A stretch of DNA of 35,813 nucleotides, from positions 1 to 35,813 of the forward strand of contig SVRZ01000027.1 in NCBI GenBank assembly GCA_015064555.1, given 5' to 3'. Position 1 is the first letter of the stretch. Each line of letters opens with the position of its first letter. Both the position numbers and the translations under genes were made by a program. Positions 16,276 to 35,392 of the stretch are shown one piece after another. The DNA comes from Oscillospiraceae bacterium. Its GTDB lineage: Bacteria > Bacillota > Clostridia > Oscillospirales > CAG-272. Under the pieces are notes generated by a model. The model was not told where the DNA came from. It worked only from the letters and a program-made list of their open reading frames with translations, and searched no databases.

Positions 16276-16352
16276 ATTTTCTCCATTCTGCCACGGCGCT
16301 TTTGGCGGCAAATGAGCCTCCACGCCCTCTCGCGGCAAGTTATACTTTCAGT

Positions 16353-16381
16353 ATTCTAACACATTTTTCAAAATATTTCAA
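16353..16381 (-). promoter_or_regulatory. Sigma-A type promoter for metG - tatD - radical SAM
   Basis: TTGAAA (16376-16381) and TAGAAT (16353-16358) on the minus strand have a 17-base spacer. Confidence 0.75.
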
Positions 16382-16404
16382 TCTGTAAGAGGATTTTTTA
16401 ATAA

Positions 16405-16451
16405 TTATTTGCCATAAAACAGACGGATAGATCATGATTTATGGCAAATAA
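16405..16451. repeat. Perfect 14-bp inverted repeat after the TIR-LRR operon
   Basis: TTATTTGCCATAAA (16405-16418) and its exact complement (16438-16451) flank 19 bases. It begins 13 bases past the stop of the downstream TIR-LRR gene. The minus-strand RNA would form a 14-bp stem but without a proper U-tract (TTATTAAAAAAT follows), so it may be a weak terminator, an mRNA-stabilising stem or a protein-binding site for metG. Confidence 0.6.
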
Positions 16452-16464
16452 GTTTAAATGGGGG

Positions 16465-18720
16465 TTATTTTTTGTAATCCCAGACGATTTCTCCATTGAA
16501 TTCTTCGTTCCATTTTTTATGCCAACCCTTTGGCGCTTTTAAAAGGAAACCGGGCTTGGGCTTGCATATATTCAAAGTGCAAGTGCAATCGTAAAATGCA
16601 CTTTCACCAACATTAGTAACGCTATCCGGGATGGTTATGCTTGTGAGGTTTGAGCAATGAGAAAATGCCCAATCTCCGATGCTTGTTACACTATCCGGAA
16701 TTTTGATACTCGTAAGGCTTGTGCAAAGCGAGAACGCATAACGGCCGATGCTTGTTACGCTATCCGGAATCGTGATGCTCGTAAGACTTGTGCAACCGTA
16801 GAACGCAGACTCACCGATGCTTGTTACGCCTTCGGGGATGATAAGCTCGGTTACAAGCTGACCGTTAAGATAGAGGTTATGTGCATGATAAAGCGGATTG
16901 GCAGATAAGGTACTAAACGATATATTACACCATTTTGCTATATCTGTTATATACACACTTGTAAGGTTAGTGCAACCATTGAACGCGGAATGACTGATGC
17001 TTGTTACGCTATCCGGGATGGTTATGCTCTTAAGGCTTGTGCAACCCAAGAACGCATACTCACCAATGCTTGTCACGCTATCCGGAATCGTGATGCTCGT
17101 AAGACTTGTGCAACCGTAGAACGCAGAATCACCAATTTTGGTCACACTATCATGCACAATAAGATCCTTGATAATGCCTCCGTAATCTTTATATCCTTTC
17201 AAAACACCATTTTGAATCTCACAAAACCTAAGAGCTTCCTTTGCTCTGCGTATCTCGTTTGCCTTTCGAGTTTCTTCCGCTCTGCGAGCTGCCTCCGCTG
17301 CTCTGCGCGCCTCTTCAGCCTTGCGAGCTTCCTCTGCCTTGCGAGCTTCCTCTGCTCTGCGTATCTCGTTTGCCTTTCGAGTTTCTTCCGCTCTGCGAGC
17401 TACCTCCGCTGCTCTGCGCGCCTCTTCCGCCTTCCTTGCCTCTTCTGCTTTACGGGCTTCTTCAGCCTTGCGTGCTTCTTCTGCCTTTCGTGCTTCTTCT
17501 GCCCTACGCTCTTCCTCTGCCTTATGAGCATCCATTGCCGCGAGTATCGTTTCTATGCTAGGGGCTGCAGATTTTGCTTTTGCCAATTCAAGCTCGAGCT
17601 CCTTCGCTCTGAGCTCTGAATCGGCTATTCTTTTCTCGGATTCATCATCCTCTACCGGATTATTCAAGATGTCTATACACTCTCCGAGCCTTTCGATCAG
17701 CTGATCAAAATTCTCGGCATAGGTTAGTCCGGAGAAGAAATTCTTCAAGGTTCTGTCCGCGAGCTGAGTAGGCATATTATCAATGCGGTATTCTACCTTA
17801 AGAGTTCTGTATTTTTCGGGGATCTGCGAATAGGTTCTCGCCTCCGGAGCCTTCTGCATATCTCTTCTCATTATGTACGGAATCTCTCTTTTCATTGCAT
17901 CACAGGAAGTATGTCTTGAATTGACGGAGGAAACAAAGACGAATATAGAGCAATTATCCATAGCCGTATGCAATGCCTTTTCATAATTTGCAACCGCATC
18001 TCGTCCGTGCTGAAGGTTTCTGAATGCCGCAAAGCAGGTAAGACCGTTTGACTCTATGAAGTTCAGCACTTCATTTACCTTCTTCATATCCTTACTTGAA
18101 TAGGCAAGGAAAACGTCTCTCGGTATGCTGAGATCATACAATCCCGCCTCCAGCTTTTCTGCCTCCTGCTCAAAGGCGGTAAGATACTTTTGCTTGTCCT
18201 CGGGAGAGAGAACCGAGCCTGCCCTATCAAGGAGCAAGGCGATAGGAGTTATATATTCTTCTCTGATAGATTTAATGAGGAAATCCAGAACAAGATCTAT
18301 GAAAATCGCATTCTCTTTGACATCTATTTCGCATATATATTCGGATATTTCAGTTCTCGTGCCACTATTTGCAAGCTCGAAAAATTCCGCGAGGAAATCA
18401 TGAGGATCAATATCCTTTATCTTGCGGCATATATCCACAATAGCTCTGCTATCTATATAGCTGGAGGTTATCTTTTCCCAGAGCTGTGAGCGGAGATTGT
18501 AATATCTATTCATCTTCTCTCGCAACAGGGCTTCATCTATCACCGAGCCAAGACTTGACCTTACGGTTGATTCGAGCTTTTTATATTCACGCTCCACCGC
18601 GGTCTCTGCAAATTCGCTTCCGCAATGTGCACAGGTGTAAATAACACCTAAGCTTCCCTCTGTTTTAGAAAGCTTGCCGTTTGCGCCGCAAATCGGACAA
18701 TCAAAATTAACAAGTGCCAT
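16465..18720 (-). CDS. Zinc ribbon - TIR - coiled coil - LRR protein A
   Basis: The 751-residue protein has four parts. A zinc ribbon uses Cys8, Cys11, Cys30 and Cys33. An all-helical region (about 45-195) contains LRSQLWEKI and PHDFLAEFFELANSG. A TIR domain (about 199-350) starts RDVFLAYSSKD; the candidate catalytic Glu279 sits in CDAMKREIPYI after FVFVSSVNS. A charged coil (about 400-495) is built of (K/R)AEEAR repeats. The C-terminal LRR domain (about 515-715) is BspA-type (SITIPDSVTSIG.YAF.GC.SL) with one WCNISF insertion, and ends in a W...W...F.G(E)IVW.Y cap. There is no signal peptide. TIR domains with this glutamate commonly cleave NAD+. AAGGAG lies 10 bases before the ATG. It is 38 bases downstream of its paralog, in one operon. 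Confidence 0.85.
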   Translation of the reverse strand: MALVNFDCPICGANGKLSKTEGSLGVIYTCAHCGSEFAETAVEREYKKLESTVRSSLGSVIDEALLREKMNRYYNLRSQLWEKITSSYIDSRAIVDICRKIKDIDPHDFLAEFFELANSGTRTEISEYICEIDVKENAIFIDLVLDFLIKSIREEYITPIALLLDRAGSVLSPEDKQKYLTAFEQEAEKLEAGLYDLSIPRDVFLAYSSKDMKKVNEVLNFIESNGLTCFAAFRNLQHGRDAVANYEKALHTAMDNCSIFVFVSSVNSRHTSCDAMKREIPYIMRRDMQKAPEARTYSQIPEKYRTLKVEYRIDNMPTQLADRTLKNFFSGLTYAENFDQLIERLGECIDILNNPVEDDESEKRIADSELRAKELELELAKAKSAAPSIETILAAMDAHKAEEERRAEEARKAEEARKAEEARKAEEARKAEEARRAAEVARRAEETRKANEIRRAEEARKAEEARKAEEARRAAEAARRAEETRKANEIRRAKEALRFCEIQNGVLKGYKDYGGIIKDLIVHDSVTKIGDSAFYGCTSLTSITIPDSVTSIGEYAFLGCTSLKSITIPDSVTSISHSAFNGCTNLTSVYITDIAKWCNISFSTLSANPLYHAHNLYLNGQLVTELIIPEGVTSIGESAFYGCTSLTSITIPDSVTSIGRYAFSLCTSLTSIKIPDSVTSIGDWAFSHCSNLTSITIPDSVTNVGESAFYDCTCTLNICKPKPGFLLKAPKGWHKKWNEEFNGEIVWDYKK
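17235..17523. repeat. Degenerate 15-bp coding repeat array (coiled coil of protein A)
   Basis: The minus strand encodes repeated AEEAR(K/R) units, seen on the plus strand as variants of CTTCCTCTGCCTTGCGAG. Two longer blocks (about 17237-17300 and 17345-17425) are near copies of each other, both encoding AEVARR/AEAARR and AEETRKANEIRR, a sign of recent internal duplication. Confidence 0.85.
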
Positions 18721-18758
18721 AATATTATGCTCCTTTTTATCTTTAAATAAAGAATCTT

Positions 18759-21700
18759 TTACTTTTTGTAGTTCCAGACGATTTTGCCCTTGAAGTCTTT
18801 GCTCCAGTCCTTATGCCATCCTTCGGGAGTTTTTGAAAACAAGCCGGGCTTGGGATGGCATATATTCAAGGTGCAAGTGCAACCGGAGAACGCAGAAGAG
18901 TCTATGCTTGTTACGCTATCCGGAATCGTGATGCTTGTAAGCTTTCCGCAACCGGAGAACGCACAAGAGCAGATGCTTGTTATACCCTGTGGGATAATGA
19001 AGGCTTCTGCACTATTTCCAACCGCATAGTGAACAAGTGTTTTTCCATCCTTAGTATAGATATGGTTGCCGTCTATGTTCTTATATTCAGGATTATTTTC
19101 GTCCACGGCTATCTGCGTAAGACTTGTGCAACCGGAGAACGCACCATATCCGATGCTTTTTACGCTTTCGGGAATTGTTATGCTTGTGAGGTTTTTGCAA
19201 TCGGAGAACGCATGATCACTAATGCTTGTAACACCATCCGGAATAACAACTTCTGTGATTTTATTGTTCGGATCTTTGAATTCCTTCAGAACTCCGTCTT
19301 CGATTTGACAGCATTTAAGAATTTCAGCCTTGCGCTCCGCCTCTAGCCTGCGCGTCTTCATCTCTTCGGTCTCATAGTTCCAAATTATCTCACCTAAGAA
19401 ATAGTTTTTCCAATTTTGATCCCAATTCTCTCCCGGAGCATTATGCATGAAACACAATTTACATCCGCAATACTTAAATGCCTCAGCTCCAATCTTTGTG
19501 ACACTGTCGGGAATAATAATGCTTGCAAGCTGTTTGCATCCTTCAAATGTCGACTCTCCAATTTCTGTAACGCTATTCGGAATAGTTATGCTTGTAAGGC
19601 TTGTGCAGTTCTGGAACGCATAACCGTCAATGCTTGTTACACCGTCCGGAATCGTGATGCTCGTAAGACTTGTGCAATCGTGGAAGGCAGTACCAATTTT
19701 AGTAACACTATTCGGAAGAATAATATTTTTAAGACTGGTGCATTGATTGAACGCATGATCGCCAATTTCAGTAACACCATCAGAAATAATAATACTCGTA
19801 AGTCCTGTGCAACCTAAGAATGTGCCGTAGCCGATGCTTGTTACACTACCGGGGACGGTGATACTTGTAAGCCCTTCGCACCATAGGAATGCCTGGTTGC
19901 CTATTTCTGTAACACTATCGGGAATTGTGATACTTGTAAGTTTTTTGCACCACGCGAATGCTGAGTCCGCAATCTTAGTAACACTATCCGGAATAACAAA
20001 TTCTTCATCGTTTTTTGCCTGAGTGTATATGACCAGCATTTTCATATCTTTGGTGTAAAGATTACCATCAATAGATGTATATGATTTATTTCCCGGGTTC
20101 ACGTTTATGCTAGTAAGATTTGTGCATCCCGAGAATGCATTTGATGCAACATTCGTAACACTATCGGGAATTTCAATACTTGTAAGGCTTGTGCAACCCG
20201 AGAACGCATAAGAACAAATGCCAGTCACGCTATTGGGAATACTAACACTCATAAGTCCCGTGCACTCCTTAAACGCCCAGATGCCGATAGTGATAACTCT
20301 ATTAGGAATAGTAATACTTTTAATTCCTTTGCAACCCAAGAACGCCCCCCTTCCTATCATGGTGACACTATCAGGGATTGTGATGCTTGTAAGTTCCGCA
20401 CAGTCTTTGAACGCATAATCGCCGATTTCTATAACATCACTGGGAATAATAACTTCGGTGATTTTATTGTTCGGATCCTTGAATTTTTTCAAAATTCCGT
20501 CTTCTATCTGGAAGCATTTGCGAATTTCGGCCTTGCGAGCTTCTTCCTCTCTGCGAGCCTCTTCGGCTTTTCTTGCCTCCTCAGCTTTGCGAGCTTCTTC
20601 CGCCCTGCGAGCCTCCTCAGCCTTGCGGGCTTCCTCTGCCTTGCGAGCTTCTTCGGCTCTTCGAGCCTCCTCCTTTGCTCTGCGAGCCGCTTCAGCCTTC
20701 CTTACCTCCTCAGCCTTTCGAGCTTCCTCGGCTTTGCGAGCTTCTTCGGCTTTGCGGGCTTCCTCGGCTTTGCGAGCCTCTTCTGCCTTCCTTGCCTCTT
20801 CTGATTTACGGGCTTCTTCAGTCTTGCGGGCTTCTTCCTCTGCCCTGCGAGCCTCCATGGCTTTGATGATCTCATCTATATCGGGAGCTGCACTTGAGCC
20901 TGCGGTTCTTGATTTTGAAAGCTCGAGCTCAAGCTCCTTGCTTCTGAGCTCTGCCTCCCTTGCCTTTTGCTCGGCTTCTATTGCCTTGAGCTCTGCCTCC
21001 TTTGCTCTGCGAGCTTCTTCTGCCAATCTGAGCTCCGTATCATCTTCATCATCTGCGGGATTATTCAAGATGTCGATACACTCTCCGAGCCTTTCGATCA
21101 GCTGATCAAAATTCTCGGCATAGGTGAGCCCGGAGAAGAAGTCCTTCAAGCTTCTGTCTGCAAGGGGTGTGGGCTTATTATCAAGGCGGTACTCCACCTT
21201 AAGCGTTCTGTATTTTTCGGGGATCTGCGAATAGGTTCTCGCCTCGGGAGCCTTCTGCATATCCTTCTTTCTTATATAGGGTATCTCCCTCGTCATTGCA
21301 TCACAGGAATTATTTCTTGAATTGACTGAGGAAACGAATACGAATATGGAGGAATTATCTATTGCGGTATGAAGCGCCTTCTCATAGTTTGCAACCGCAT
21401 CACGTCCGTGCTGAAGGTTTCTGAATGCCGCAAAGCAGGTAAGACCGCTTGCCTCAATAAAATTAAGCACCTCAACGACCTTATTCATATCCTTGCTTGA
21501 ATAAGCCAGGAATACGTCTCTCGGGACGTTTACATCATATATTCCCTCGGCTGCTTTTTCGGCTTCCTTCTCAAATTTAGTGAGGTATCTCTGCTTATCC
21601 TCGGGCGAAAGCAGCGCACCCGCCTTATCAAGAAGGGCGGCGATCGGAGTTATGTATTCCACCTGAATGGATTTTAAAAGAAAATCAAGAACAAGGTCTA

Positions 21701-22121
21701 AAAAGAGCTCATTCTCCTTGACGTTTATTTCGCATATGTATTCTGCGATCTCCGGCTCGGTTCCGCTATTGGCAAGCTCGAAAAACTCGGCAAGGAAATC
21801 ATGAGGATCAATAGCCTTTATCTTGCGGCATATATCAACGATCGCCTTGCTGTCTATATAATTTGCATGGATCTTTTCCCAGAGCTGTGAGCGCAGATTG
21901 TAATATATCGCTGTTTTTTCGCGCAGGATGGCTGCCTCGATGGCTGAGCCGACATTTTTCTTAATGCTCACCTGCAGCTTTTCATACATTTCACCTGCCC
22001 TATCCTCGGCAAACTTGCTTCCGCAATGCGAGCAGGACCAGATGATATCACCGCTATCCTCGCTTTTGCTGAGCTTTCCGTTAGCTCCGCAGATAGGGCA
22101 ATCCATAAGCTTTAACTCCAT
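18759..22121 (-). CDS. Zinc ribbon - TIR - coiled coil - double LRR protein B
   Basis: The 1120-residue protein is a longer paralog of protein A, nearly collinear for the first 360 residues: ribbon Cys8/11/30/33, helical region, TIR from about 199 with candidate catalytic Glu279 (AMTREIPYI). A coil of KAEEAR units spans about 365-540. A first LRR block (about 560-890) ends in a W...W...F.GEI.W.Y cap (about 900-916). A short charged linker repeats the QIED(G)(V/I)LK.FKDPNNKITEV(V/I)IP entry, and a second LRR block (about 955-1090) ends with the same cap as protein A. This indicates internal duplication of cap, linker and LRR. No secretion signal is present. GGAGG is 12 bases before the ATG, a slightly long spacing. 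Two promoters precede it and it is the first gene of the pair. Confidence 0.85.
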   Translation of the reverse strand: MELKLMDCPICGANGKLSKSEDSGDIIWSCSHCGSKFAEDRAGEMYEKLQVSIKKNVGSAIEAAILREKTAIYYNLRSQLWEKIHANYIDSKAIVDICRKIKAIDPHDFLAEFFELANSGTEPEIAEYICEINVKENELFLDLVLDFLLKSIQVEYITPIAALLDKAGALLSPEDKQRYLTKFEKEAEKAAEGIYDVNVPRDVFLAYSSKDMNKVVEVLNFIEASGLTCFAAFRNLQHGRDAVANYEKALHTAIDNSSIFVFVSSVNSRNNSCDAMTREIPYIRKKDMQKAPEARTYSQIPEKYRTLKVEYRLDNKPTPLADRSLKDFFSGLTYAENFDQLIERLGECIDILNNPADDEDDTELRLAEEARRAKEAELKAIEAEQKAREAELRSKELELELSKSRTAGSSAAPDIDEIIKAMEARRAEEEARKTEEARKSEEARKAEEARKAEEARKAEEARKAEEARKAEEVRKAEAARRAKEEARRAEEARKAEEARKAEEARRAEEARKAEEARKAEEARREEEARKAEIRKCFQIEDGILKKFKDPNNKITEVIIPSDVIEIGDYAFKDCAELTSITIPDSVTMIGRGAFLGCKGIKSITIPNRVITIGIWAFKECTGLMSVSIPNSVTGICSYAFSGCTSLTSIEIPDSVTNVASNAFSGCTNLTSINVNPGNKSYTSIDGNLYTKDMKMLVIYTQAKNDEEFVIPDSVTKIADSAFAWCKKLTSITIPDSVTEIGNQAFLWCEGLTSITVPGSVTSIGYGTFLGCTGLTSIIISDGVTEIGDHAFNQCTSLKNIILPNSVTKIGTAFHDCTSLTSITIPDGVTSIDGYAFQNCTSLTSITIPNSVTEIGESTFEGCKQLASIIIPDSVTKIGAEAFKYCGCKLCFMHNAPGENWDQNWKNYFLGEIIWNYETEEMKTRRLEAERKAEILKCCQIEDGVLKEFKDPNNKITEVVIPDGVTSISDHAFSDCKNLTSITIPESVKSIGYGAFSGCTSLTQIAVDENNPEYKNIDGNHIYTKDGKTLVHYAVGNSAEAFIIPQGITSICSCAFSGCGKLTSITIPDSVTSIDSSAFSGCTCTLNICHPKPGLFSKTPEGWHKDWSKDFKGKIVWNYKK
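20502..20846. repeat. Degenerate 15-bp coding repeat array (coiled coil of protein B)
   Basis: About 20 (K/R)(A/S/T)EEAR units are encoded on the minus strand, longer than the matching array in protein A. Such an array can change length by slippage in 15-base steps without loss of frame. Confidence 0.85.
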
Positions 22122-22162
22122 AATAGCGCTATTCCTCCAATAAAAATACTATCGCATTTTAT

Positions 22163-22191
22163 ATACTAACATAATTTGCCGGAAAATGCAA
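22163..22191 (-). promoter_or_regulatory. Proximal promoter of the TIR-LRR operon
   Basis: TTGCAT (22186-22191) and TAGTAT (22163-22168) on the minus strand have a 17-base spacer; predicted start about 35 bases before the ATG. Confidence 0.6.
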
Positions 22192-22207
22192 GAAAATATT
22201 TATTTAA

Positions 22208-22236
22208 ATATTAAATATATGGCAATAAATTGTCAA
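22208..22236 (-). promoter_or_regulatory. Distal promoter of the TIR-LRR operon
   Basis: TTGACA (22231-22236) and TAATAT (22208-22213) on the minus strand have a 17-base spacer in a very A/T-rich stretch. Two promoters in tandem suggest more than one level or condition of expression. The rest of 22237-22319 leads to the divergent yitT-like gene, whose own -10 is probably TAAAAT near 22284 with a poor -35. Confidence 0.65.
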
Positions 22237-22319
22237 TTTTTTATATTTTTTCGTTTTCCTCTTTTAAATCGGATTATTTTGTGATAAAATGAGATGTGAA
22301 TTCAACTCAGGGAGAACTT

Positions 22320-23234
22320 ATGAAAACAATTTTGAATAATAAAAATATACTTACGTCGGTGAAAAATTCGGCACTCGTCGTGCTGGGAACGCTCGTTCTT
22401 GCATTCGGTGCAGCTGTGTTCATTATCCCCTTCGACCTTGTCACCGGAGGAATAACAGGTCTTGCCATAATTCTGGATGAGATAATAAAGGCGGAGTTTA
22501 TAACGATAGATCTTATTATAACCGTAATTACCTGGCTCACCTTCCTGCTCGGGGCGGTAATATTGGGAAAGGACTTTGCCCTCAAAACGCTCATATCCAC
22601 GATAACATATCCTTTTGCTATATCGCTGTTTTTACAACTCGCATCACCCGATGCGCTCGGCGGCTACCTTGATCTTGCCGGTAGCAGCTACGGCGAGCTG
22701 GCACTCATTCTCGGCTCGGTGGTCGGCGGAGGACTCGTCGGTATCGGCTGTGCGCTTGCATTTCTCGGCGGCGGCTCGACGGGCGGCGTTGATATCATCG
22801 CATTCGTCATATGCAAATTCTTCCCTCGCCTGAAAAGCTCAAAGGTGATATTCGTCATTGATGCGCTGATAGTGACGCTCGGTATATTCATCATAAACGA
22901 TCTCATTATTTCGCTCTTGGGTGTGCTCTCGGCGACGGTCGCAGCGATTATGATAGACAAGGTATTTCTTGGCGGTAAGCGCGCTTTGGTCGCAAAGATA
23001 GTATCCGAAAAATACGACGAAATAAACCGTCTTGTTATCGAAAAAATGGACAGAACGACAACTATTATTGACGTTACGGGCGGTTATAGCCTTCAAAATA
23101 AAAAAATGCTTATGGTTTCATTCACTATGCGCGAGTATACAACTATTATGAATATAGTGAATGAAACGGATAAATACGCATTCGTCACCATCCACCGCGC
23201 TCACGAGATAAACGGAGAGGGATGGACTAGGTGA
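22320..23234 (+). CDS. YitT-family membrane protein
   Basis: The ATG at 22320 follows GGGAGAA by 4 bases; a GTG frame 24 bases upstream overlaps that site. The 304-residue protein has five to six hydrophobic segments, beginning with GTLVLAFGAAVFIIPFDLVTGGITGLA, the typical first helix and G-rich loop of YitT proteins, and later FLGGGSTGGVDI. The C-terminal soluble part (about 215-300) has DRTTTIIDVTGGYS and MVSFTMREYTTIMNIV, the DUF2179 domain. The transported or sensed substrate is not known for the family. It is divergent from the TIR-LRR operon and ends at a strong bidirectional terminator. Confidence 0.92.
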   Translation: MKTILNNKNILTSVKNSALVVLGTLVLAFGAAVFIIPFDLVTGGITGLAIILDEIIKAEFITIDLIITVITWLTFLLGAVILGKDFALKTLISTITYPFAISLFLQLASPDALGGYLDLAGSSYGELALILGSVVGGGLVGIGCALAFLGGGSTGGVDIIAFVICKFFPRLKSSKVIFVIDALIVTLGIFIINDLIISLLGVLSATVAAIMIDKVFLGGKRALVAKIVSEKYDEINRLVIEKMDRTTTIIDVTGGYSLQNKKMLMVSFTMREYTTIMNIVNETDKYAFVTIHRAHEINGEGWTR

Positions 23235-23278
23235 GTTGATTTTAAGCTTAACGCATCACACAATATTAACTTTATATT

Positions 23279-23318
23279 AACGATAAAAGCCGCCCTACAC
23301 AAGGCGGCTTTTATCGTT
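23279..23318. terminator. Perfect 16-bp stem, bidirectional terminator
   Basis: AACGATAAAAGCCGCC (23279-23294) and its exact complement (23303-23318) flank an 8-base loop. A and T tracts on each side serve both the yitT-like gene (+) and the XRE gene (-). The XRE stop codon (23311-23313) lies within the stem. Confidence 0.88.
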
Positions 23319-23556
23319 CTGTTTCTAAATCTTCCGAACTAAATATCTCGTCATCCAAAAACTCGGTCAGAGGCATATTAAAGCCTCTTGCGAGCATAAT
23401 TACAGTGCTTAAGGTTACTGTTTTATTTTGTCCGTTCATAATACATTGCATACTTCCGTGTTGTATTCCCGATTCCTGCTCCAAGCGGTATTGGGACATA
23501 TCTTTTTCACGCAATAGATTGGAAATACGCTTTGCAACCGCATCATTTACTGTCAA
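23311..23556 (-). CDS. XRE-family helix-turn-helix regulator
   Basis: The 81-residue protein is almost only a Cro/C1-type helix-turn-helix: AVAKRISNLLREKDMSQYRL, ESGIQHGSMQCIMNGQNK, then TLSTVIMLARGFNMPLTEFL. The start is a TTG at 23556, preceded by GGGAGG at 7 bases; the nearest ATG is out of frame. Small XRE proteins of this kind repress their own divergent promoter in toxin-antitoxin and phage-like modules. It is divergent from a SLOG-like gene across a 164-base region with several GTAGG/CCTAC palindromes, so it is the best candidate to bind them. The stop codon lies inside a shared terminator. Confidence 0.88.
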   Translation of the reverse strand: MTVNDAVAKRISNLLREKDMSQYRLEQESGIQHGSMQCIMNGQNKTVTLSTVIMLARGFNMPLTEFLDDEIFSSEDLETER

Positions 23557-23587
23557 ACTGATACCTCCCGATAAGAAGATTTAACTC

Positions 23588-23705
23588 CGTAGATTTACCT
23601 ACGTATATATTTTATCAGGAAAAGCGAAAAAATATAAGAAGGTATGCCTACATACTCTTGACTTTCTTGTAAATACGTAGTACAATATGTAGGTGTACCT
23701 ACATA
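23588..23705. promoter_or_regulatory. Cluster of palindromic operator-like sites between the XRE and SLOG-like genes
   Basis: Three palindromes share GTAGG/CCTAC-type half sites: CGTAG-6-CTACG (23588-23603), GTATG-4-CATAC (23642-23655) and TATGTAGG-4-CCTACATA (23686-23705). A further TACGTA-like sequence lies at 23674-23679. The third starts at the last base of the -10 box and covers the likely transcription start; the second lies just upstream of the -35; the first overlaps the leader of the XRE gene. The layout fits autoregulated repression of both genes. Confidence 0.7.
23658..23686 (+). promoter_or_regulatory. Sigma-A type promoter for the SLOG-like gene
   Basis: TTGACT (23658-23663) and TACAAT (23681-23686) have a 17-base spacer and sit between two operator-like palindromes. 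A candidate minus-strand -10 (TAAAAT, 23612-23617) for the XRE gene is less convincing. Confidence 0.78.
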
Positions 23706-23720
23706 AAGGAGAATTGAGCT

Positions 23721-24176
23721 ATGATTGTGACTTTTTGCGGACACGCTCGTTTCTCAAAATCGGAGGACTACGAGCAAAAAATACTTGCATTTTTGGAAGA
23801 AAAGGTGGGAGTTCTTCCCGCAGATATGTATTTAGGCGGTTACGGTGAGTTTGATAGTTTTGCGTACGATTGTTGCAAGAAATACAAGGAAACACACCCT
23901 AACATTTCTCTTGTATTTGTAACACCGTATCTGACGACTGATTATCAATGCAATCACTTGCAGTACCAAGAAACAAGGTACGATTCAATTCTCTATCCTG
24001 AAATCGAGGATAAGCCTAAGCGGTACGCAATTACATACCGTAACAAATATATGGTGGAAAAAGCGGATTATGTAGTTGCCTACGTTTCACACAATTGGGG
24101 TGGCGCGTACACAACATACAGGCACGCAAAAAGAAAACACAAGGAGATCTTTAATCTTGGGAATTTCAAAGAATAA
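23721..24176 (+). CDS. SLOG/DUF1273-like Rossmann-fold protein
   Basis: The 151-residue protein starts MIVTFCGHARF and ends with a segment, KADYVVAYVSHNWGGAYTTY, that strongly resembles the DUF1273/YpsA-type SLOG domain (a strand, then GG(A/T)..T...A). SLOG domains bind nucleotide-derived ligands and occur as sensors or effectors in defence and stress systems; a ligand cannot be assigned here. There is no membrane segment. AAAGGAG is 9 bases before the ATG. It is divergent from the XRE regulator and appears to be controlled by it. No terminator was recognised in 24177-24260. Confidence 0.75.
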   Translation: MIVTFCGHARFSKSEDYEQKILAFLEEKVGVLPADMYLGGYGEFDSFAYDCCKKYKETHPNISLVFVTPYLTTDYQCNHLQYQETRYDSILYPEIEDKPKRYAITYRNKYMVEKADYVVAYVSHNWGGAYTTYRHAKRKHKEIFNLGNFKE

Positions 24177-24263
24177 AGTATTTACCGGATTCTATATGAC
24201 ATAGTTGTACGGGATCGGCGGTTTTGTAATTTTTGCCTTTTTGCGTTTTTTCGGCTTCGGTGA

Positions 24264-24292
24264 TTGACAACAAAGCTTTTTACTGTTATAAT
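24264..24292 (+). promoter_or_regulatory. Consensus sigma-A promoter for holB - ricT
   Basis: TTGACA (24264-24269) and TATAAT (24287-24292) are 17 bases apart, a perfect consensus pair. The leader to the ATG at 24368 is about 70 bases. Confidence 0.88.
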
Positions 24293-24367
24293 ATAAGGTG
24301 TATTTTAATTAAATAAAATGCATATATTTGACCGAGGTGTTTTTTCTGCGGCATTCGGAGAGGTTTT

Positions 24368-32304: not shown

Positions 32305-32333
32305 TTGACTTCTTTATATTATTATGTTAAAAT
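32305..32333 (+). promoter_or_regulatory. Sigma-A type promoter for the LRR lipoprotein
   Basis: TTGACT (32305-32310) and TAAAAT (32328-32333) have a 17-base spacer. Confidence 0.8.
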
Positions 32334-32339
32334 TAACCG

Positions 32340-32506
32340 GCGACAAATATTTTCGCACGAAGGACGTATTGTGTCATTTCAGCACCCCGTGCTTATATCC
32401 CCTTTGTGTAAAAAGCTGCGTCGCGGCGGCGAGAAGTGCTTCATATGATGCACTCTCTTCGCGAGCGAATTTTATTTATCTTTTACAGAGAAAGGAAAAA
32501 CAGACC
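32340..32506 (+). other. Long 5' leader of the LRR lipoprotein gene
   Basis: The predicted transcript has a leader of about 165 bases. It contains GCAC-CCC-GTGC and, at about 32457-32468, TTCGC-GA-GCGAA followed by TTTTATTT, which resembles a small attenuator. I see no known riboswitch. An open frame through the leader in the lipoprotein's frame exists but the true start at 32507 has the signal peptide. Confidence 0.4.
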
Positions 32507-35392
32507 ATGAAAAGATTTATCACAGTTTTAGCTTTGGCAATGGCTCTTGCGATTTCTGTCTGCTCGCTTTCTGCGTGTGATATCTCAGGAATTCTGGGCG
32601 GCATAAACAATAACTGCCCACATGCAGATGCTGACAATGATCTTATCTGCGATATGTGCGGACAGCCCTACAACAGCGAGAACAATGACGCAAACGGCGG
32701 CGGCACAGGCGGAAGCAATGACGGAAACAGCGGAAACAACGGAGAACACAGCGGAAGCAACGGAGACCACGGCGGAAGCAACGACGAAGTTCCCGGCGGC
32801 GAGCAGCCCGACATCCCCGTCTGCGAGCATATCGATGCAGACGATAACCTTTTATGCGATAAGTGCGGTGAGGCTTACGATGACGGAGGGATCAACAAGG
32901 ATCCCGACCTGAACGATTGCAAGCATATTGATGCCGACGATGATCTTCTCTGCGATAATTGCGGTGAGGCTTATGACGATGGCGTCAACTGCGAGCATAT
33001 CGATGCGGACGATGACCTTCTCTGCGATAATTGCGGCAAGGCTTATGACGATGGCGTCAACTGCGAGCATATCGATGCGGACGATAATCTCTTCTGCGAT
33101 AATTGCGGTGAGACTTATGATGATGGCGTAAACTGCAACCATATCGACGTTGACGATGACCTTCTCTGCGATAATTGCGGCGAGGCTTATGACGATGGCG
33201 TCAACTGCAGACATATCGACGTTGACGATGACCTTCTCTGCGATAATTGCGGTGAGGCTCACGATGATCGCATAGGCCCCGGAGGCTTGACCTACTACTT
33301 AAGCGAGGATAAAACCTATTACGCTCTGATAGGATATAACCCCGAATATGACTATGACGGAACCGATACTGTAGTTATTCCCGCGGTCTACAAGGACCTT
33401 CCCGTAAAGACCATCGGAGCTTGCGTATTTTCATCCTGCACCGAGCTGACCAACGTAACTATCCCGAATAGCATAACAAGCATCGGATATGCTGCATTCA
33501 TGAATTGCTCTGCTCTTACAAGTGTAACTATTCCGAATAGTGTAGAAAAAATCGACGATTCTGCGTTTTCAGGCTGCACAGCACTCATAAGCATTACTGT
33601 CACGAATAGCATAACAACCTTCGGAAGCGCTGTATTCCAGGATTGCCCTATCGAGGAAGCTACAGTTCCCGCATCGGCAATCAGCAGTATCTCAAACGGT
33701 ATGCTGAAAACTGTTGTTATAAACGGTGGAACAAGCATCGACAATCATGCATTCGCAGGTCGCTATGAGCTTACGAGTATAACCATCCCGAATAGTGTAA
33801 CAAGCATAGGCGATTATGCGTTTTACAGCTGCTCCAAGCTCACAAATATTACCATCCCCGACAGTGTAACAAGTATAGGCTCTTCTGCTTTCGAGAAGTG
33901 CACAAGTCTTACGGCTGTGACTATCGGCAGCAAAGTTACAAATATTGGAGAAATTGCGTTCTTAGATTGCCCTATCAATACGGCAACAATTCCCACGTCG
34001 GTAATTTCCTCTATTCCCAAGGACAACCTTACAAGTGTTACTATCAACGGAGGAACAACCATCACCGAACGTGCATTTGAAAAGTGCTATACCCTTACGA
34101 GCCTGACTATCGGCGAAAGCATTACAACCATCGAAAGCTATGCCTTCGATAATTGCTTCAATCTCACAAGCATAACTATCGGCAATAACGTATCCGATAT
34201 AGGAAGTCGTGCATTCAGCTGCTGCTATAAGCTTACCGGCATAGCCATTCCGGATAGCGTAAGAAGCATCGGAGATTATGCGTTTGCATATTCCGAGAAG
34301 CTCGCAAGCGTTACTGTCGGTAACGGTGTTATGACCGTTGGTGATTATGCATTTAAAAATTGCTTCGATCTTGCAAGTATAGCTATTCCCTCTACCGTAA
34401 CAAGCATCGGCAGCTATGCATTTGATAGCTGTTCAAGCCTTACAAGTGTAACTATCGGTGATATTACCGCAAGCACGGATACCCAAAGCAGCGCTGCAAG
34501 CATTGGCTCCTATGCGTTCAACGGTTGCGAAAAGCTCGCAAGCGTAACTTTAGGCAACAGCGTTGCAAGCATTGGTGAGTCCGCGTTTGAATCTTGCTCA
34601 AATCTTGCGAGCGTGATTCTTGGTAACGGTCTTACAAGCATTGGCAAGCGTGCGTTCGCCAACTGCGATAGGATTGCAAGCATAGTTATTCCCGCCTCCT
34701 TAACAAGCATCGGCGAAAATGCGTTCCTGGGTTGCTTCAAGCTCGTGGAGGTAATAAACCACTCCGATCTTACTCTCACTGCAGGAGAGGGTGGCTACGG
34801 TCTTCTTTCGTTCTATGCGATCGAGGTACATACCGAAGAAAGCAAGATAACAAATAAGAACGGATATCTCTTCTATTCCTGCGATGCGGGCAATTATCTG
34901 TTCGGTTATACCGGTGAGGATACGGCTTTGACTCTTCCCGAAAGCTATAACGGCGGAAATTATCAGATTTATCAGTTTGCATTCTATAAGAGAAATGACA
35001 TTACAAGCGTTACCGTTCCCGATAGCGTAACTGTCATCGGCAGCTTGGCATTTGAGTATTGCGAAAATCTTGCAAGCGTTACCTTAGGCAATGGCTTAAC
35101 AAGTATCCATAACCATGCCTTCGCCGGTTGCATACAGCTCACAAGCATAGCTATCCCGAATAGCGTTACAACCATCGGCAATGATGCGTTTGCCGGCTGC
35201 GAAAAGCTCGCAAGTGTAACCATCGGAAATGGCGTTACAAGCATCGCTGCTTATGCATTCAGCCGTTGCGCAAAGCTTTCAAGCATCAACTACCGCGGAA
35301 CCGAGGAGCAGTGGAATGCTATATCGAAGGTTTCCAATTGGGTTTCCAATTCGGGTACATATACCATAAGCTACAACTACACAGGCGAATAA
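32507..35392 (+). CDS. Lipoprotein with Cys/His/Asp repeats and BspA-type leucine-rich repeats
   Basis: The ATG at 32507 follows AAAGGA and gives 961 residues with a lipoprotein signal (MKRFITVLALAMALAISVCS then LSAC, Cys24). Residues about 37-257 hold seven repeats of the pattern C.HxDxDxxLxCDxCG(E/K)(A)YDDG, with a Gly/Asn/Ser-rich linker (about 58-100) after the first. The Asp-rich loops and paired Cys/His suggest calcium or zinc binding. From about residue 265 there is a large BspA-type LRR domain (SITIPNSVTSIG..AF..C..L repeats) to the end, closing with YRGTEEQWNAIS. The LRR units are very close in wording to those of the TIR proteins, but this one is exported. BspA-like lipoproteins bind host or other ligands; here that is inferred. 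Confidence 0.9.
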   Translation: MKRFITVLALAMALAISVCSLSACDISGILGGINNNCPHADADNDLICDMCGQPYNSENNDANGGGTGGSNDGNSGNNGEHSGSNGDHGGSNDEVPGGEQPDIPVCEHIDADDNLLCDKCGEAYDDGGINKDPDLNDCKHIDADDDLLCDNCGEAYDDGVNCEHIDADDDLLCDNCGKAYDDGVNCEHIDADDNLFCDNCGETYDDGVNCNHIDVDDDLLCDNCGEAYDDGVNCRHIDVDDDLLCDNCGEAHDDRIGPGGLTYYLSEDKTYYALIGYNPEYDYDGTDTVVIPAVYKDLPVKTIGACVFSSCTELTNVTIPNSITSIGYAAFMNCSALTSVTIPNSVEKIDDSAFSGCTALISITVTNSITTFGSAVFQDCPIEEATVPASAISSISNGMLKTVVINGGTSIDNHAFAGRYELTSITIPNSVTSIGDYAFYSCSKLTNITIPDSVTSIGSSAFEKCTSLTAVTIGSKVTNIGEIAFLDCPINTATIPTSVISSIPKDNLTSVTINGGTTITERAFEKCYTLTSLTIGESITTIESYAFDNCFNLTSITIGNNVSDIGSRAFSCCYKLTGIAIPDSVRSIGDYAFAYSEKLASVTVGNGVMTVGDYAFKNCFDLASIAIPSTVTSIGSYAFDSCSSLTSVTIGDITASTDTQSSAASIGSYAFNGCEKLASVTLGNSVASIGESAFESCSNLASVILGNGLTSIGKRAFANCDRIASIVIPASLTSIGENAFLGCFKLVEVINHSDLTLTAGEGGYGLLSFYAIEVHTEESKITNKNGYLFYSCDAGNYLFGYTGEDTALTLPESYNGGNYQIYQFAFYKRNDITSVTVPDSVTVIGSLAFEYCENLASVTLGNGLTSIHNHAFAGCIQLTSIAIPNSVTTIGNDAFAGCEKLASVTIGNGVTSIAAYAFSRCAKLSSINYRGTEEQWNAISKVSNWVSNSGTYTISYNYTGE
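32918..33277 (+). repeat. Five in-register 72-bp coding repeats (Cys/His/Asp motif)
   Basis: Copies start at 32918, 32990, 33062, 33134 and 33206, each 24 codons, with high identity in TGCGATAATTGCGG and GCTTATGACGATGGCGT. Two more divergent copies of the motif lie upstream, at about 32615 and 32821. Confidence 0.92.

Follow-up and report, generated by a model that had tools for sequence, protein, structure and literature searches.

What might a bacterium do with two adjacent genes that each fuse a TIR domain to leucine-rich repeats (LRRs)? The question is raised by a 35,813-nucleotide stretch of Oscillospiraceae bacterium DNA (assembly GCA_015064555.1, contig SVRZ01000027.1), called here in its full length the window, in which an open reading frame (ORF) of 751 amino acids (16465-18720, minus strand) adjoins one of 1120 amino acids (18759-22121, minus strand). 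The initial annotation described the two as paralogs, each running from a zinc ribbon through a helical domain, a TIR domain and a coiled coil to a BspA-type LRR, and proposed that they form a cytoplasmic sensor pair. ORF calls and Pfam agree on two paralogous ORFs with this layout, with a charged stretch in the place of the coiled coil. As judged from sequence comparison and a structural model, the ribbon, the helical domain and the TIR domain form a constant unit, the N-module, which has been duplicated in individual genomes and carries C-terminal domains of interchangeable type. We give a probability of roughly 50% to the reading that these proteins are modular receptors, in which a constant TIR effector is paired with exchangeable sensors and clustering would set off a putative NAD cleavage and a stop in growth.

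In the 751-residue protein, the zinc ribbon (C8, C11, C30, C33) takes up residues 1-45 (18586-18720) and is followed by the helical domain at residues 46-196 (18133-18585), the TIR domain at residues 197-353 (17662-18132; Glu279 codon, in TIR helix C, at 17884-17886), a charged helix of 6-residue repeats at residues 395-500 (17221-17538) and the BspA-type LRR with its C-terminal cap at residues 522-751 (16465-17157, stop codon included), all on the minus strand. The 1120-residue protein is laid out likewise on the same strand, with the ribbon at residues 1-45 (21987-22121), the helical domain, placed by alignment to the modelled 751-residue paralog, at residues 46-196 (21534-21986), the TIR domain at residues 197-353 (21063-21533; Glu279 codon at 21285-21287), the charged helix at residues 418-535 (20517-20870) and the LRR with its cap at residues 537-1120 (18759-20513, stop codon included). 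The LRR tails ascribed to both proteins are matched by Pfam LRR_5 with E-values of 1.9e-57 (751 residues) and 9e-125 (1120 residues), and these parts also contain 69-bp DNA repeats. Matches to Pfam TIR_2 (2.2e-5 and 1e-5, respectively) fall slightly under the curated cut-off, and the sole NCBIfam model passing its cut-off on the pair is TIGR02167, a surface-protein repeat.

A shared N-module with varied ends

The genome that holds the window (2.07 Mb in 44 contigs, 82% complete) carries seven N-modules with ~355 shared N-terminal residues, and these are its only matches to PF13676 (E 0.01). The ends that follow the module differ: LRRs in the window pair, MORN repeats in three paralogs (contigs C14, C20 and C4), DUF6273 in one (C22) and a membrane helix in one (C42). 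In the case of C42, a separate, co-oriented gene for a 203-residue LRR protein is found 135 bp upstream, and its product shares with the two window LRRs a C-terminal cap that a search of the genome found nowhere else.

A TIR alignment of broader scope was used to look for relatives in genome contigs. Of 234 confirmed stretches, the best 80 fell into 78 loci; 19 of these loci were assigned to the family, with 34-59% identity across 110-168 residues of the query, and the other 59 were treated as generic TIRs (28 extracted, 23 aligned). The 15 further genomes of the 19 relatives, which are metagenome-assembled genomes (MAGs), were then searched with alignment A1 and yielded 40 members, one to seven per genome, for a total family set of 47 members (7 own and 40 others) in 16 genomes. 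The relatives' MAGs are labelled Clostridia, Clostridiales, Oscillospiraceae, Erysipelotrichaceae or Bacilli, and the stated sources of some include sheep and goat colon and goat rumen. Pfam scans covered 45 members, all but L072 and L080, which are truncated at contig ends. Among these 45, the ends comprise LRR_5 in 24, Sel1 in seven (one with an LRR), MORN in three, DUF6273 in three (one with an LRR), SBP_bac_3 in one and a second TIR in one, with none of these types in the remaining eight. L207 (4375-5907, genome G836) is a member with a second TIR at its C-terminal end, and a domain resembling the C-terminal domain of ribosomal protein L7/L12 follows the TIR in four members (L188 2071-5217, L185 2071-5496, L189 8491-11307 and L201 2847-5717).

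At least two members are present in nine of the 16 genomes. The label of a sensor pair is too narrow, because the window pair makes up only two of seven paralogs in its own genome and six clusters, each with two or three members, account for 13 of the 47. On a tree of N-modules, the seven own copies form one clade (100/100), the five copies of G828 and the five of G831 likewise form clades, and the G838 and G839 copies are intermixed; deep branches are weak, and L203_9867 and L206_695 are long. Along this tree (45 rows, with end types coded by hand and no shuffle control), end type changes at least 16 times and LRR presence 11 times. The N-module of the window pair is under purifying selection by its sequence-based dN/dS of 0.12, synonymous sites being saturated in many other pairs. 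Within the tandem pair, synonymous divergence (pS) is lower in the TIR parts (0.45; 17662-18132 and 21063-21533) than in the helical (0.72) and ribbon (0.80) parts, a pattern that gene conversion could leave.

The proposed cytoplasmic location of the window proteins agrees with hydropathy, as far as this measure goes, for neither protein has a membrane helix or a hydrophobic N-terminal segment. Eight of the 47 members passed the hydropathy cut and, with L200 set aside as lying at the cut-off (1.72), seven have a clear membrane helix. This helix lies between the N-module and the LRR in L186 (3531-6551) and L205 (3295-6204), and between the N-module and SBP_bac_3 in L187 (3896-5863). Counted in 15 residues on each side, K/R versus D/E amounts to 3/2 on the N side and 2/5 on the C side in L186, where a Thr/Pro-rich spacer follows the helix, to 4/0 and 1/4 in L205, and to 2/0 and 0/4 in L187. 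From these flanking charges, the three proteins are predicted to cross the membrane once, with the TIR inside and the LRR or solute-binding domain outside.

The stretch between TIR and LRR had been taken for a coiled coil that drives oligomerisation, and neither idea is supported. Its K/R-AEEAR repeat has a period of 6, not 7 (lag-6 identity of 0.62 and 0.65 in the two window proteins, lag-7 identity of 0.27 and 0.21), and because this period comes without a heptad seam, the coiled-coil assignment is unsupported and a single charged helix appears likelier. The stretch is underlain by 18-bp DNA repeats, and its length varies between paralogs from ~20-30 up to ~180 residues (by eye), which also speaks against a coiled coil as the driver of oligomerisation.

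TIR fold and the glutamate at position 279

All four ribbon cysteines are kept in 47 of 47 family members. The TIR fold is weak by sequence but clear in an AlphaFold (AF2) model built with 19 relatives (pLDDT 88.9) and in the matches of this model to the PDB, and the domain can be placed in the TIR superfamily; an AF2 run limited to the two window rows produced a poor model (pLDDT 55.5), which was set aside. The best PDB match found with Foldseek is SARM1 (7djt, E 1.7e-4), on which whole-chain superposition is poor (TM-score 0.25, root-mean-square deviation 18.1).

A glutamate had been noticed at residue 279 of both window proteins, at the place where NAD-cleaving TIRs carry theirs; it is present in both, and in the model it lies within helix C (residues 274-289). 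E279 is invariant in the seven own-genome paralogs and in all 21 sequences of alignment A4, and is kept in 46 of all 47 members, as is S208. Across 31 aligned TIRs (8 family and 23 generic bacterial), only F204, S208 and E279 are invariant. In profile alignments, TLR6, TLR15 and TIR-STING chains have their helix C Glu opposite E279, and the spacing from S208 to E279 (71) equals that from S121 to E192 in SpbK, two residues given as modelled NAD contacts in PMC12847820. On the grounds of secondary structure, profile alignment and spacing, E279 appears to stand at the active-site position.

Genomic setting and neighbouring genes

The pair lies in a stretch of ~8 kb between metG and holB (16339-24367) that is absent in six congeners and has a G+C content of 0.434 versus 0.50 on either side. 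It also holds a YitT gene, a small helix-turn-helix (HTH) ORF and a SLOG-like ORF, all co-located and not assigned to the TIR-LRR system. Within the genus sample of 36 genomes, metG was found in 32, including the window's own, and the locus was examined in 14 of the 31 others. Six of the 14 have metG and holB divergently oriented and some 130-230 bp apart; in two, 2.2-2.4 kb with unrelated genes separates them; and in the other six no holB was found within the stretch extracted around metG. The SLOG-like ORF (23721-24176, plus strand; weak Pfam match, E 0.0038; no PDB match) was considered as a linked ADP-ribose sensor and rejected, as it is present in 11 of 14 tested congeners, all without the TIR family; it is also present in five of the 15 other TIR-family genomes.

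A full N-module was found in none of 35 congeners and, within overlapping samples at class (391 genomes), phylum (398) and order (394) level, each with the own genome included, only in the window's genome; the phylum sample gave an additional TIR-only match. When 59 genomes were searched with the N-module, the remaining matches comprised the ribbon alone in two congeners, where by eye it belongs to a ribonucleotide reductase, and generic TIRs in a single genome from a different family. No relative was found in viral contigs, phages or plasmids, and these are weak negatives because a scan of genome contigs with alignment A1 missed relatives that the broader TIR alignment found. The family is rare and patchy, and often multi-copy where present, as would be expected of conflict genes. 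Elsewhere in the window (32324-35392, plus strand), a 1022-residue protein with DZR zinc ribbons, many LRR_5 repeats and no TIR match holds the same parts in a different combination. The 1120-residue query gave 189 matches in the window's genome; among the matches listed nearly all are LRR stretches, and some LRR stretches of this genome lie in open frames up to ~4000 residues.

In a search for the STALD (ThsA SLOG) type only, this domain was absent from 15 of the 16 TIR-family genomes, including the window's (82% complete), and the sole match (G834:C4) lies on a contig different from that of the TIR gene. Weak PADLOC matches to ThsB were obtained for 16, 14 and 13 of 21 members with the three commonest models, the best member reaching 9.8e-7. 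A common gene order surrounds the TIR-LRR pairs of G828 (L185 1-11340) and G841 (L203 2601-14227): a small coiled-coil protein, a coiled-coil-FtsK fusion, two TIR genes, a Cdc48-like AAA ATPase with a helical N-terminal part, an HTH gene and a zinc-ribbon protein, which in L203 has a trypsin-like domain. This order is found in part in L183 (G829) and L192 (G833); in L183, by eye, the coiled-coil part leads into an AAA-like part, and there are two TerD genes in the vicinity. Of the 16 genomes, 11 have the coiled-coil neighbour family. An ESCRT-III identity for the small coiled-coil protein was considered and is unsupported, with no informative Pfam or PDB match.

A receptor reading and its rivals

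The best-supported account, by analogy, is that these proteins act as receptors, with a sensor at the C-terminal end and a TIR effector toward the N-terminal end, triggered by clustering as described for the SpbK TIR in PMC12847820 and in line with Thoeris proteins, which sense a phage capsid protein according to PMC12578639. The window pair would be cytosolic members of this modular family. The C-terminal domain may sense a ligand, phage-derived or otherwise foreign, whereupon the ligand-bound proteins would cluster and their TIR domains would form active sites that cleave NAD+; this could deplete NAD+ or make an ADP-ribose signal, and the cell would stop growing. The charged helix may serve as a spacer or lever. 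The family TIR is probably NAD-cleaving in this clustering-triggered manner and, because the sensor is predicted to lie beyond the membrane in some relatives, the same N-module could report on the outside too. A wider possibility, held tentatively, is a prokaryotic Toll-like repertoire, many of whose hosts are gut bacteria, in which a duplicated TIR module with swapped sensors, cytosolic or membrane-spanning, would start an NAD-based arrest.

Parts of this plan are found in known systems. SpbK and Thoeris ThsB, both abortive-infection TIR NADases, are alike in TIR fold and helix C Glu, and SpbK also in Ser-to-Glu spacing; the family adds, ahead of the TIR, a zinc ribbon and a helical domain and, after it, a large exchangeable sensor, and differs from Thoeris in having no STALD gene in 15 of the 16 genomes. 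Animal Toll-like receptors combine TIR and LRR in one protein, as the window pair does by Pfam, and L186 and L205 likewise are predicted to have one membrane helix between the two with the TIR inside. However, the family has the reverse chain order, a BspA-type LRR and a zinc ribbon, and the window proteins have no membrane helix; the resemblance is a likeness of plan, and descent is not claimed. Plant TIR-NB-LRR and bacterial TIR-NBD-repeat proteins share a TIR effector, C-terminal repeats and an expanded paralog set, but no nucleotide-binding domain appears in Pfam scans (E 0.01) of the window pair and its five paralogs. SARM1 also keeps its TIR, an NADase, under the control of other domains; that TIR is C-terminal, whereas the family TIR lies toward the N end. 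BspA-type LRR proteins, typically surface proteins, have LRR_5 repeats in common with the window proteins, which differ by the TIR fusion and by having no secretion signal. The initial annotation knew of no described system with this domain order, and none was found in the open PMC literature, most subscription papers being outside its reach. TIR-LRR fusions are catalogued with animal TLRs as the archetype, beside TIR-NBD-repeat proteins of plants and bacteria, in part of PMC9153377, and the available parts of PMC7075850, PMC7159879 and PMC13142454 contain no zinc ribbon-TIR-LRR family.

Several findings weigh against the receptor account, and some of them fit other explanations. It is conceivable, if rather unlikely, that the proteins are non-immune receptors that read nutrients or envelope stress and whose TIR-made signal controls physiology. 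The solute-binding SBP_bac_3 domain of one member and the TerD genes near some members would suit such a role, and the genes beside family members are, by eye, mostly housekeeping genes and not defence islands. Without a background set, a PADLOC scan of 113 of 125 longest-ORF calls within 2 kb (12 spurious- or antisense-looking calls were left out by eye) matched 99 models; among the 25 models listed are broad ones, mad8 (8 members) and GlgB (5), and single strong matches, namely DndA/SspA, which we interpret as a cysteine desulfurase of housekeeping function, together with the candidate models PDC-S34 (9.7e-115) and PDC-S01 (2.9e-104), each in one member. A clear defence-island link was not found in this neighbourhood. 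Patchy presence (the own genome only in each of the three large samples), expansion within genomes and sensor swapping are nevertheless more like conflict genes, and the TIRs of SpbK and Thoeris act in defence.

We regard it as unlikely that the TIR is a scaffold, with sensor-driven clustering recruiting partners via TIR-TIR or zinc-ribbon contacts and no NAD cleavage. The top structural row of the model is IL-1RAcP (14.5), with MyD88 at 13.2, both of which we take to be scaffold TIRs, and they stand level with the enzymes. One member (L203_9867) has an alignment gap in place of E279, and L109, one of five generic TIRs extracted but outside the 31, has Asp there (by eye). The residue four before the Glu is Ala in 45 of 47 members; its SpbK counterpart, Tyr188, is modelled in contact with NAD in PMC12847820. 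The Glu by itself does not predict NADase activity, since, according to PMC7075850, more than 90% of TLR1/2/6/10 TIRs carry it and its presence does not necessarily go with reported activity. Possible partners are the conserved coiled-coil, FtsK or AAA genes beside TIR genes in four genomes; yet most members have no adjacent partner gene, and the coiled-coil gene was not found in the window's genome, which is 82% complete. The retention of E279 and S208, each in 46 of 47 members, also goes beyond what the fold alone seems to need.

A role directed at an animal host, whether as effectors that are secreted or as adhesins on the surface, is very improbable: BspA-type LRRs occur in adhesins and several source records are from animal gut, but the window pair has neither a hydrophobic N-terminal segment nor a membrane helix, and charges put the TIR inside where an internal helix exists. 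Hardly credible is an assembly artefact or a decaying, repeat-driven chimera, despite the MAG source and the repeat-rich DNA (18-bp and 69-bp repeats), given that 24 of 45 members, drawn from independent MAGs, have TIR and LRR_5 in a single open frame and that the N-module is under purifying selection.

If the family does consist of modular receptors, a constant TIR module with freely exchanged sensors would mean that bacteria too assemble receptor repertoires by sensor swapping. The family would then serve as a natural swap set for learning what LRR, Sel1 and MORN domains recognise and, if its TIRs are NADases, would reveal how sensing of the exterior is linked to arrest of a bacterial cell. 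Such a repertoire, if true, would be built as animals and plants build theirs.

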